Origin: an uncultured SAR86 cluster bacterium
GTDB lineage: Bacteria; Pseudomonadota; Gammaproteobacteria; Magnimaribacterales; D2472
NCBI GenBank assembly: GCA_902602595.1
Contig: CACKRJ010000001.1
Span: forward strand, 410,522 to 474,521
Reading direction: 5' to 3'
DNA length: 64,000 bases
The notes below the pieces were generated by a model. That model was not told where the DNA came from. It made no database searches and saw only the letters and a list, made by a program, of their open reading frames with translations. Shown here piece by piece: positions 4,242 through 7,196 of this stretch (position 1 is the stretch's first letter; each line of letters starts with the position of its first letter). The position numbers and the translations under genes are program-made.

Positions 4242-5084
4242 ATGCAAACTAAATTATTGAGAGAAATTAAAATAGCGCTGCCTAACTTGAGAAAATCCGA
4301 AGTAAAGGTTGCTGAATTCATTTTAAACAAGCCTAGCGCCATTATTGAGTTAACTACAGCCCAAGCTTCTAGTGAAATAGGTGTTAGCGAGCCTACCTTG
4401 ATCAGATTTTGTAAAGCAGTGAATTTTGATGGTTTTCAAAAATTTAAGCTTACTCTTGCTCAGCAACTAGCTGCAGATGACTATTTCAATTCATATGAAA
4501 TCGATCCCGAGGATTCGATTCAAGAACTAACAGAAAAAGTTTTCGACAGCACCATCAGTGAAATTTTAAATGTTAGATCGCAGCTTGATCAAAACGCACT
4601 TGAAGAGGCAATTGAAACTCTTGCAAATGCTAAAAGAGTTGAATTTTATGCCTTTGGTGGCTCTGTGCCAGTAGCCATGGATGCTCAACATAAATTTTTT
4701 CGGCTTAAAATTCCCTCTTCTTGTATTTCTGATCCCCATATCCAATTTATGTCTGCAAATTCTCTTAACAATAAAGATGTGGTTGTAGCAATATCTCAAT
4801 CAGGAACTACTGCAGCTCTAGTTGAGAGCATAAAGACAGTCAAAAGCTTTGGGGTAACTGTTATAGGCTTAATGCCATCTAACACACCTCTTTCAAGAAT
4901 ATGTGATATCTCGCTGGATATTGATGTGGGTGAAAATGCTAGGTTGACTAGACCGCTTACTTCAAGATTAGCTTATATGGCAATAATTGATGTATTAGCA
5001 GTGGGTGTAGCTCAGCTTAAACCAGAAGCACAAGATCATTTGTTTAATATTGTTACAAGTCAGAATTCTTTAAAAATAAAATAA
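4242..5084 (+). CDS. hexR: RpiR-family transcriptional regulator, HexR-like
   Basis: Sugar-responsive DNA-binding regulator of 280 residues. Residues 1-75 form an HTH_6 domain (L-R-K-S-E-V-K-V-A-E-F-I then I-G-V-S-E-P-T-L-I-R-F-C-K), and about 125-250 form a SIS sugar-phosphate-binding domain (F-G-G-S-V-P-V-A-M-D, A-I-S-Q-S-G-T-T). This is the HexR layout; HexR in gammaproteobacteria senses KDPG and controls Entner-Doudoroff and central carbon genes. None of those targets is adjacent here, so the regulon is inference. Its stop touches the stop of the convergent prolyl hydroxylase gene with no gap. Confidence 0.82.
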   Translation: MQTKLLREIKIALPNLRKSEVKVAEFILNKPSAIIELTTAQASSEIGVSEPTLIRFCKAVNFDGFQKFKLTLAQQLAADDYFNSYEIDPEDSIQELTEKVFDSTISEILNVRSQLDQNALEEAIETLANAKRVEFYAFGGSVPVAMDAQHKFFRLKIPSSCISDPHIQFMSANSLNNKDVVVAISQSGTTAALVESIKTVKSFGVTVIGLMPSNTPLSRICDISLDIDVGENARLTRPLTSRLAYMAIIDVLAVGVAQLKPEAQDHLFNIVTSQNSLKIK

Positions 5085-5723
5085 CTAGTATCTTAAATTT
5101 TCTCTGAACCAAAGATTAACCATCCACTTCTCGCCCTTTAGAACAGGCATGCCTCCATGCAGCGATCTTGGATGAATTTTAGGGTGGGTACCTGCATCAA
5201 TTGGTAAAGTATTATGAAAAACTACTGCATCTCCTTTTTTAGGCGGGATATCTATGCCAAGTTCTGGAAAACCTGTTTCTCCGCCCTCCTCAACATCATT
5301 TAAATAAGCAATCACCGTGATCATCCGTTGGCCGCCTGGCTCCCAATTTTTTTTACCATCATCAGTTTCATAATCAAAAGAATCATAATGAGGTTTATAT
5401 TCGGTGCCCTTTTTGTAATATACAAGCTGATATTGTTCAGCGTTTCGAATTGGGATTTGAACGAGAATTGAGAATCTCTTGCTCACTTCATGAACAATCT
5501 CGTTGGCATCATGCTCTATCCAGCAATTTTCACTTGTTCTACTTTCATGTTGAATGTGTTTATCGGGGCTAATAACTGTGGAGGGCTGAAGCTTCCCTTC
5601 TGCGGCTTTAATAAAAGCATCGCACTCATCATTGCTAAGAAAATTAGCTACTACATATAAGATAGGGTCAGCAGCATACATGGTGACATTATCAGCAATT
5701 TTTTTTGGATATTCCTTATTCAT
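5085..5723 (-). CDS. Prolyl 4-hydroxylase-type 2OG-Fe(II) dioxygenase
   Basis: Predicted to hydroxylate prolyl residues using Fe(II), O2 and 2-oxoglutarate. Counting from an upstream in-frame TTG at 5750 (221 residues), the iron ligands are H121 and D123 (K-P-H-Y-D) and H198 (S-L-H-G-G), and the 2OG-binding lysine is K208 (K-G-E-K-W). The stretch G-Q-R-M-I-T-V-I-A-Y-L-N-D-V-E-E-G-G-E-T is the hallmark of collagen/plant/Bacillus-type P4H. I prefer ATG at 5723 (M10), because the TTG version would run into the divergent gene; that gives 212 residues. It faces a hydroxyproline-GlcNAc-transferase-like gene across a 45-bp gap, suggesting the two act on the same protein. Confidence 0.88.
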   Translation of the reverse strand: MNKEYPKKIADNVTMYAADPILYVVANFLSNDECDAFIKAAEGKLQPSTVISPDKHIQHESRTSENCWIEHDANEIVHEVSKRFSILVQIPIRNAEQYQLVYYKKGTEYKPHYDSFDYETDDGKKNWEPGGQRMITVIAYLNDVEEGGETGFPELGIDIPPKKGDAVVFHNTLPIDAGTHPKIHPRSLHGGMPVLKGEKWMVNLWFRENLRY

Positions 5724-5768
5724 GAGTAGAAATAATTGTATGCTAACCAATTAAAGATCGCACATAAA

Positions 5769-6770
5769 ATGAGCATATTTATTTCAATCGCTTCCTACCA
5801 AGATCCCATGCTGGTGTCTACAATTTTTAGTGCATATAACAATGCTCAAAATAAAAATGGGCTGATTTTTAGCATATGTGATCAATCAGATAATGGAATT
5901 CAAGTAAATGAAATTGCTTTCTCGGATCAAATTCACTACGAGCATGTTGATCCCTTGTTTTCAAAAGGTCCCTGTTGGGCAAGACATAGAGCCCAAAGTT
6001 TTTTTAATGAGGAAGACTTCTTCATACAAGTTGACTCCCATACACAATTCGCACCTGGCTGGGATAATATTTTTATTGAGCATCTAGAAAAAATCTCTGC
6101 TATTCAAACAGATGATAATTATTTTAAAAAGCCAGTTATCACCTCTTATCCGCGAAGTTTTAAAGTTTTAGATTTTGAAAAGGGTATATTTTCTCTCAAT
6201 ACTGGAGACAAGCACACTCAAATCATAACCTACAGAAAAGATAGTCTATTTTTAAAAGGCTCATTTTCACGACAAATTGGCATTCCAACAAAATGTAATG
6301 ACATTACGCATGCGTTTCTAATGGCAGCAGGCTGTATTTTTACAAAAGGCTCGTTTGTAAAAGAAATTCCATATGATCCAAATTATTATTTCTACGGAGA
6401 AGAACTTTCAATGGCATTAAGGGCATTCACCCATGGCTATTCATTTTTTCATATTCCTGATGCGCCTTTATTCCATCTCTATACAGATACCAGCAATCTT
6501 CCTAGGAAACTTCACTGGGATCCAGAGGATGATGAAAATAGAGCGATAAAATGGACTGAATTAGATAGAAAAAGTTTAAATAGGCTAGATAATCTGTTTG
6601 CTGGAAAAGTTGAAGAGCCCATGAACCTAGGGAAAGAGAGATCTTTAAACGACTATGCTTTGATCAGCGGCATAGATTTAAAAAATAATATAGTGTTGGA
6701 TTTAAACAAGGCTACCAAATCTAATTTTCTTGAATCCCTTGATTGGAAAATTAGCCCACTTAAACAATAG
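5769..6770 (+). CDS. GT60/PF11397-type GlcNAc transferase (hydroxyproline GlcNAc-transferase-like)
   Basis: Resembles the glycosyltransferase family that includes Dictyostelium Gnt1, which adds GlcNAc to hydroxyproline of Skp1. Features visible: an N-terminal I-F-I-S-I-A-S-Y-Q-D-P strand, G-P-C-W-A-R-H-R-A-Q, a D-S-H metal/nucleotide motif followed by F-A-P-G-W-D (residues about 89-99 from the chosen start), and Y-F-Y-G-E-E-L-S-M-A-L-R-A-F-T-H-G-Y near residue 210. ATG at 5769 is preferred over a TTG at 5736 that would overlap the divergent gene. Length 333 residues; no signal peptide or membrane segment, so cytoplasmic. Donor sugar and acceptor are inferred from family and the adjacent prolyl hydroxylase. 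Confidence 0.78.
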   Translation: MSIFISIASYQDPMLVSTIFSAYNNAQNKNGLIFSICDQSDNGIQVNEIAFSDQIHYEHVDPLFSKGPCWARHRAQSFFNEEDFFIQVDSHTQFAPGWDNIFIEHLEKISAIQTDDNYFKKPVITSYPRSFKVLDFEKGIFSLNTGDKHTQIITYRKDSLFLKGSFSRQIGIPTKCNDITHAFLMAAGCIFTKGSFVKEIPYDPNYYFYGEELSMALRAFTHGYSFFHIPDAPLFHLYTDTSNLPRKLHWDPEDDENRAIKWTELDRKSLNRLDNLFAGKVEEPMNLGKERSLNDYALISGIDLKNNIVLDLNKATKSNFLESLDWKISPLKQ

Positions 6771-6779
6771 GAGAATTTT

Positions 6780-7196
6780 ATGAGTGATGAAGCAAGAGAA
6801 TTTTTAAACAGTTATGGAGATTTTGTTACCAAGGTAACAAGTGAACCAAGCTTAGACCAAAACAGTTTAGATGCTCGCATGAAAGAAATTGATTCCTCCT
6901 CTCCAATAGAGTCTGCAAGACTGTTAACAGCTGCACTTGGACTAGGCAGTGAAACAGGCGAATTTGTAGAAATTGTAAAAAAGATGTTCCTTCAGGGGAA
7001 ACCAGCATCAGAAGATAATATTTTTCACATGAAAAGAGAGCTTGGAGACATTATGTGGTATTGGGCTACAGCCTGCATGGCCTTAAAACTTGATCCCTAT
7101 GAGGTAATCAAAGAAAACCAAGATAAACTTGAAGCAAGATATGGAGAAAAGTTTGAAGTGGATCGTAGTGAGCACAGAAAAGATGGAGACTTATAA
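6780..7196 (+). CDS. MazG-like nucleotide pyrophosphohydrolase
   Basis: All-alpha NTP pyrophosphatase of 138 residues. The metal-binding pattern is present as E58-x-x-E61 (S-E-T-G-E-F-V-E) and E87-x-x-D90 (R-E-L-G-D-I-M-W-Y), the MazG EXXE...EXXD signature. A single short MazG domain like this is closer to phage and integron-type MazG-like proteins than to the double-domain E. coli MazG. A GGAG ribosome-binding site sits 5-8 bases before the ATG. It starts nine bases after the glycosyltransferase stop, so the two are probably cotranscribed. The nucleotide substrate is unknown. Confidence 0.85.
   Translation: MSDEAREFLNSYGDFVTKVTSEPSLDQNSLDARMKEIDSSSPIESARLLTAALGLGSETGEFVEIVKKMFLQGKPASEDNIFHMKRELGDIMWYWATACMALKLDPYEVIKENQDKLEARYGEKFEVDRSEHRKDGDL

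Follow-up and report, generated by a model that had tools for sequence, protein, structure and literature searches.

Does a prolyl 4-hydroxylase (P4H) gene that faces a glycosyltransferase (GT) gene in an uncultured SAR86 cluster bacterium act with it in a two-step protein modification? The pair lies in the window, the whole 64,000-nucleotide stretch of DNA that was analyzed. According to excerpts of the cited papers, the Skp1 pathway includes PhyA, which hydroxylates one proline, and the GT60 enzyme Gnt1, which adds alpha-GlcNAc (PMC6939170, PMC8724618, PMC9472816, PMC7864055). Toxoplasma Gnt1 activity depends on PhyA (PMC6939170), and protist Skp1-pathway enzyme pairs are often fused (PMC8724618). 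GT60 is described in PMC8724618 and PMC9472816, and T. cruzi OGNT1 is reported there to act on Thr. Excerpts of the literature describe hydroxyproline glycosylation in plants, green algae, and protists; judged from titles and abstract openings, none of the papers listed describes a bacterial P4H-GT pair.

The pair is read here as a two-step cytosolic protein modification, in which P4H hydroxylates a protein and GT adds a sugar to the same hydroxyproline (probability roughly 0.6). If true, a two-step protein modification known until now from amoebae and related protists would also occur in bacteria. A bacterial protein would then carry a sugar whose addition depends on O2 and 2-oxoglutarate and involves two small genes, and there would be a bacterial system against which to set the origin of the eukaryotic PhyA-Gnt1 pathway.

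Gene pair and predicted proteins

The following features of the window are used below.

4242–5084, forward strand: RpiR-SIS regulator gene that bounds the slot on one side; many pair-less loci retain it
5085–5723, reverse strand: P4H, collagen type, 212 aa, by matches to PF13640, 2jig, and 3itq
5127–5390, reverse strand: span of the P4H Fe/2OG residues, from the translation
5127–5129, reverse strand: P4H K199, 2OG lysine
5157–5159, reverse strand: P4H H189, Fe/2OG residue
5382–5384, reverse strand: P4H D114, Fe/2OG residue
5388–5390, reverse strand: P4H H112, Fe/2OG residue
5724–5768, no strand: AT-rich region of 45 bp between the P4H and GT starts
5769–6770, forward strand: PF11397 (GT60-like) GT, type A, 333 aa, by Pfam and structural model
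6033–6041, forward strand: D89-S90-H91 of GT, invariant in the 44 of 46 GT rows that read through the site, the window's among them
6393–6404, forward strand: Y209-G210-E211-E212 of GT, the GE motif, with Y209 as type-A marker
6780–7196, forward strand: MazG-like gene that bounds the slot on the other side; retained at pair-less loci

By ORF translation, the P4H ATG is at 5723 on the reverse strand. The protein matches PF13640 (2.4e-17) and, among solved structures, 2jig ('PROLYL-4 HYDROXYLASE', 5.6e-34), an algal P4H, and 3itq ('Prolyl 4-hydroxylase, alpha subunit domain protein', 6e-32), a Bacillus-type P4H. A profile of 16 rows of relatives matched 3itq (2e-37), 2jig (1.8e-36), and human P4H alpha-2 (2.4e-31), and no PHD, PPHD, or PhyA chain was among the matches listed up to E 10. 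On these comparisons the enzyme is classed as collagen-type and is not detectably PHD/PhyA-type. The first-pass annotation had named a P4H with a full H-x-D...H...K active site; H112-x-D114, H189, and K199 are all present, and all four residues are kept in 43 of the 47 P4H rows of the window's family, the window among them.

The GT ATG is at 5769 on the forward strand, also by ORF translation. The earlier call of a PF11397/GT60-like enzyme is borne out by a PF11397 match of 1.4e-44 and 153.5 bits, against a curated cut-off of 21. No sequence match to solved structures was obtained (best E 0.17 and 0.36). Structural modeling, proposed earlier as a check, gave a model with pLDDT 86.3 and pTM 0.88 that fits the GT60-like call. 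Polypeptide GalNAc-transferases, of about eight different kinds, take all of the first 29 places among its structural matches (Z 18.8–21.9, rmsd 3.2–4.1 over 251–273 residues), including GalNAc-T2 at Z 21.9 and rmsd 3.3 over 263 residues. The next entry is chondroitin polymerase (Z 18.2), and other GT-A enzymes tie with the lowest of the GalNAc-transferases. All 50 chains listed by Foldseek are polypeptide GalNAc-transferases, with TM-scores of 0.47–0.58 on the query. The model thus predicts that the enzyme folds like the GT-A polypeptide HexNAc-transferases. It also carries their two motifs, GE and the metal-binding DxH (D89-S90-H91); the fold alone proves neither donor nor acceptor. Polypeptide GalNAc-transferases form family GT27. 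They and the protist polypeptide alpha-GlcNAc-transferases of GT60 resemble the window GT in fold, in DxH and GE motifs, and in the PF11397 match. In contrast to them, the window GT has 333 aa, thus no lectin domain, and no signal anchor was seen by eye.

No signal peptide was seen by eye in P4H, and neither a signal peptide nor a signal anchor in GT, so both proteins should be cytosolic. NCBIfam had no match for P4H, GT, or MazG. The two ATGs are separated by 45 bp (5724–5768), the distance of about 45 bp given earlier for the divergent genes. The short common upstream region suggests co-regulation of P4H and GT, and 5724–5768 is perhaps a two-way promoter. Start-to-start gaps are 22–66 bp in the 39 of 45 family pairs where both starts are measurable (6 lack a measurable start). 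The run ATAATTGTA in the P4H-GT gap recurs in groups g1, g6, and g10 and is not found in g8 and g9.

Joint inheritance in a chromosomal slot

The family sample comprised 107 genomes, including the window genome (G000; 1.35 Mb, 21 contigs, 82.8% complete). PF11397 matched 46 of the 107 and P4H 47. The first-pass annotation had asked how often the two families are neighbors: in all 45 genomes with both genes they are adjacent and divergent on one contig, within 220 bp between match edges. Two genomes with a single gene, G071 (GT only) and G091 (P4H only), have loci cut at contig ends. This leaves G052 as the sole family genome truly with P4H and without GT.

Two loci depart from the common form. 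In G052 (L080:8271-9089), a 272-aa ORF stands in the place of GT beside an intact P4H; it is 2OG-oxygenase-like by eye only and has no Pfam match up to E 1. In G039, GT (L079:7236-8283) is split by stop codons and P4H is intact.

The slot in the family reads lipB-dctP-uvrD-rpiR-(P4H<>GT)-mazG, with few borders changed. A further 47 loci were read in genomes without a match to the pair: rpiR alone stands between uvrD and mazG in 27, the interval is empty or differently filled in 17, and three are not judgeable, among them G029, where GT is cut at a contig end. Both borders persist at many pair-less loci, so rpiR and mazG are placed outside the module. The UvrD tree contained 87 rows (UvrD under 500 aa left out), 84 of them with both traits, and the slot was read without P4H in 42 genomes. 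P4H requires 11 changes on this tree and GT 10. GT moves with P4H in 8–9 of nine independent contrasts on well-supported branches, and never against it (sign test p 0.004–0.008). One deletion removes both neighbors, so these contrasts show a cassette rather than a shared function, and co-occurrence by itself supports a common role only weakly.

The adjacency could be mere conserved gene order, with the two genes hitch-hiking in a stable slot without joint function. Synteny of lipB-dctP-uvrD-rpiR-(pair)-mazG in most of the family fits this explanation, but 42 genomes of the tree have a readable slot that lacks the pair, and the pair is intact in G100 and G102, where the left border has changed. 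The same pairing recurs in cyanobacteria and as a fusion, with five P4Hs seen at GT loci against about 0.03 expected (see below), and hitch-hiking is judged very improbable. The pair kept beside the changed border of G100 and G102, together with pairing outside the family, is evidence beyond a cassette, and a functional pairing of P4H and GT is well supported.

The surroundings of the slot vary in a few genomes. In G100 and G102 (L077, L090), a gene that looks TonB-receptor-like by eye adjoins P4H and replaces rpiR and uvrD; it is in pieces in G100. In some g8 genomes (L092, L096, L101, L103), two extra genes, dehydrogenase-like by eye, are inserted after mazG, which is another variable part of the slot neighborhood.

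Recurrence in other lineages

Beyond the family, the search started from GTs, whose fetched flanks of up to 5 kb were then tested for P4H. A collagen-type P4H was found near GT at five of 79 genome loci (the best 79 of 256 confirmed stretches) and was absent at the other 74. Kordiimonas sediminis (L214:4260-6887) encodes a single 875-aa protein with P4H (residues 6–208), PF11397 GT (246–546), and tubulin-tyrosine-ligase-like (TTL-like; 663–857) domains. Vulcanococcus sp. SFB_649D, V. limneticus LL, and Synechococcus GreenBA-s have P4H and GT head-to-head by domain positions, and the GTs of the latter two are 98% identical. In the Umea1 cyanobacterium the genes are tail-to-tail. The neighborhood check proposed earlier came out in favor of the pairing beyond the family as well, with the cyanobacterial pairs and the Kordiimonas fusion added to the family's adjacency and joint presence and absence.

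The P4H background was counted in 50 of the 79 genome loci. These 50 GT-bearing genomes (199.6 Mb, all five paired ones included) hold 17 P4H places in 13 genomes, five of them at GT. About 0.03 P4Hs would be expected within 2 kb of the 79 GTs; five were observed at GT loci. The class sample has PF11397 in four of its 369 genomes and the phylum sample in 28 of 398, the window's own included in both. Among 39 outer loci tested (L108–L112, L160–L193), P4H was found only at the Kordiimonas fusion. The cyanobacterial order sample has GT in 19 of 250 genomes and P4H beside it in two of the 19. GT is uncommon and the pair rare in the drawn class and phylum samples. The broad GT tree, from which L271, L278, and L279 are missing (start-codon rule) and near-identical rows were thinned, separates the clade of the window's family from the GTs of Kordiimonas and Umea1; its rows do not include the GTs of the three cyanobacteria with head-to-head genes. 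On this tree, the pairing may have more than one origin, or may be old and often lost.

Shorter ORFs of G930 and G927 contain stretches with 39–43% identity to the Kordiimonas TTL-like domain.

Hydroxylase decay beside one GT type

The family GT tree, from which GTs under 200 aa were left out (G039, G071), separates 36 rows of type A from eight of type B. The residue before GEE is Y in 38 of 38 type-A and H in eight of eight type-B GTs. P4H identity follows genera and GT type does not: in G034 and G037, the P4Hs are 84–94% identical to the same-genus type-A P4Hs compared, and the GTs just 47–50%, so GT was replaced in place in these two genomes.

All 37 genomes that hold both a type-A GT and P4H have an intact P4H active site (the GT of G039 being broken by stops). 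A predicted-dead P4H occurs in four of the 47 rows (G015, G019, G046, G047), and all four accompany type B (four of eight). The first Fe ligand is lost in G015 and G019, and several active-site residues are lost in G046 and G047. The type-B GTs beside these dead P4Hs keep the DxH and GEE motifs. P4H is intact in the remaining type-B members (G034, G036, G037, G050).

Selection was estimated from 16 genome pairs tried. Where computable, dN/dS is 0.02–0.08 for live P4H and 0.05–0.16 for GT in live-P4H pairs. The G046/G047 pair has 0.30 for the dead P4H versus 0.068 for GT. For G015/G019, P4H has 0.18, with synonymous sites near saturation and GT not computable. Motifs intact beside predicted-dead P4Hs suggest that a PF11397 GT beside a P4H is not always dependent on it. 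The pattern can be read as type A needing the hydroxylase and type B having lost that need or being able to lose it, over few independent events, perhaps two or three. The split between types and the dead hydroxylases form a natural experiment on when a GT needs hydroxyproline.

The same observations bear on a rather unlikely alternative, in which the enzymes act on the same protein or pathway at different residues, GT adding a sugar to Ser/Thr and P4H separately hydroxylating one of the target's prolines. Polypeptide GalNAc-transferase relatives act on Ser/Thr. Intact type-B motifs where P4H is dead and the low GT dN/dS in G046/G047 agree with independent action, as do the 74 of 79 genome GT loci (best 79 of 256) without a collagen-type P4H neighbor and the Kordiimonas protein, which adds TTL as a third domain of a protein-modifying family. 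Independent action is countered by the intact P4H beside 37 of 37 type-A GTs and by P4H decay only where the GT type differs. We keep to action of both enzymes on one proline as the preferred reading.

The residue before GEE was also considered as a marker of P4H pairing. It is Y/F at all five paired loci outside the family, but among readable loci without pairing it is also Y/F at 18 of 62 in the genome set and 12 of 14 in the cyanobacterial set; it follows ancestry too and was kept as a hint only.

Viral relatives of the two enzymes

PF11397 GTs are common in viral contigs, with at least 580 confirmed stretches. Eleven annotated records carry GT (three phage, eight plasmid), and five of their neighborhoods (phage H3; plasmids H34, H35, H36, and H38) had no P4H match. 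A viral scan with the single window GT as query gave no match. P4H has only remote relatives in phages, with less than 60% identity in every one of 57 records. P4H was found in the fetched flanks of none of 159 viral GT loci (from lists of the best 80), and a phage origin of the pair was set aside on that count.

The module could instead decorate a surface or phage-exposed component and be swapped as phage resistance. Presence is patchy within genera, the GT type was replaced in place with P4H kept in G034 and G037, and the GTs nearest to the family's among 65 outside rows of the broad tree are those of viral contigs L293, L295, L298, and L299. However, neither protein has a signal peptide by eye, GT dN/dS of 0.05–0.16 gives no sign of diversifying selection over the whole gene, and P4H is missing at all 159 viral GT loci (from lists of the best 80). 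A role in phage resistance is judged improbable, and a cytosolic acceptor is preferred.

Candidate acceptor proteins

EF-Tu and S12 were compared as candidate acceptors in a set of 18 genomes. No proline column tracks P4H loss in EF-Tu (16 genomes, three with dead P4H) or in S12 (15 genomes, four with dead P4H), which neither proves nor excludes either protein. The window genome, an incomplete assembly, had neither an EF-Tu match above the cut-off nor any match to S12. GT and the neighboring genes on either side of the pair contain 87 conserved proline columns, and only one, within GT, is lost in all dead-P4H genomes. This proline, as taken here, is P in 36 of 36 readable type-A rows and none of eight type-B rows; it marks type A versus type B and is therefore no substrate lead.

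Proposed modification and known systems

The proposal builds on what computation shows: what the two genes are, their active-site motifs and fold class, their inheritance as a unit, and pairing that recurs elsewhere, once as a natural fusion. In the first step, the collagen-type P4H would use O2, 2-oxoglutarate, and Fe(II) to convert a proline of a host protein to 4-hydroxyproline. In the second, the PF11397 enzyme, as a retaining GT-A GT, would transfer an alpha-linked sugar from UDP-HexNAc, probably UDP-GlcNAc, to that hydroxyl. From the computed features we infer both enzyme activities, the retaining mechanism, the donor sugar, the shared target residue, and a substrate. In some type-B lineages the hydroxylase would be dispensable; most simply, GT or its acceptor would now use a natural hydroxyl (Ser/Thr). 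Counting against the proposal are the predicted-dead P4Hs beside type-B GTs with intact motifs, the P4H kept without GT in G052, the scarcity of collagen-type P4Hs beside other PF11397 GTs (lacking at 74 of 79 genome and 159 of 159 viral loci, both from lists of the best 80, and present in two of 19 GT-bearing cyanobacterial genomes), and the failure of EF-Tu and S12 prolines to follow P4H loss.

The first-pass annotation drew a parallel to the modification of Skp1 on a single proline. The GT side of it stood, with a fold that fits a GT60-like enzyme; the likeness to PhyA was not supported, as the nearest solved relatives of P4H are collagen-type. As far as excerpts on Dictyostelium, Toxoplasma, and Pythium describe it, the Skp1 pathway shares with the window pair a cytosolic P4H plus a GT60 GT. 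It differs in that the window pair is bacterial and its hydroxylase collagen-type, not PHD/PhyA-type. As far as computation can tell, the bacterial module should work in the same order as the Skp1 pathway. A wider reading, tentative and set at slightly short of even odds, is that bacterial hydroxyproline O-glycosylation was assembled separately from that pathway and more than once, in the window's family, the Kordiimonas fusion, and picocyanobacteria. It would mark a cytosolic protein in an oxygen-dependent way and, within the window's family, would shift between a form that requires the hydroxylase (type A) and one that does without it (type B).

Pseudomonas PPHD is a bacterial, PHD-like prolyl hydroxylase that acts on EF-Tu (PMC7864055, from an excerpt). 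The window P4H is likewise bacterial. PPHD differs from it in being PHD-like and was not among the sequence matches listed for it; glycosylation is unmentioned in the excerpt of PMC7864055.

Hydroxylase and GT also occur within one protein elsewhere. The Kordiimonas fusion has this arrangement in common with LH3-type lysyl hydroxylase/glycosyltransferases and with giant alphaproteobacterial proteins. It also resembles a dual-function P4H/GlcNAc-transferase that, by the title of a report, is said to exist in a plant pathogen. The giants were seen in uncultured alphaproteobacterial loci (L216, L217, L219, L223, L225, L227, L243) as ORFs of 1313–2456 aa in which two to four tandem PF11397 domains accompany an oxygenase domain of PF13640; AhpC/TSA-like and PF13661 domains are present in most of them as well. 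The oxygenase of L217, the one giant tested, is nearer to PKHD hydroxylase and LH3 than to collagen P4H. A wider P4H model matched L217 (4e-6) and L219 (1e-4) weakly, and the giants were not counted as collagen-type P4H. These GT-AhpC-2OG proteins are a module separate from the P4H-GT pair. We know of no paper on a giant hydroxylase-glycosyltransferase megaenzyme family.

Unpaired PF11397 GTs were also seen near type I secretion genes (L108, L241, L248, L250, L259, L282). For L108, where a large calcium-binding protein lies next to them, these genes are annotated as such; at the other five loci they were recognized by eye. This placement hints at modification of secreted adhesins by unpaired GTs.
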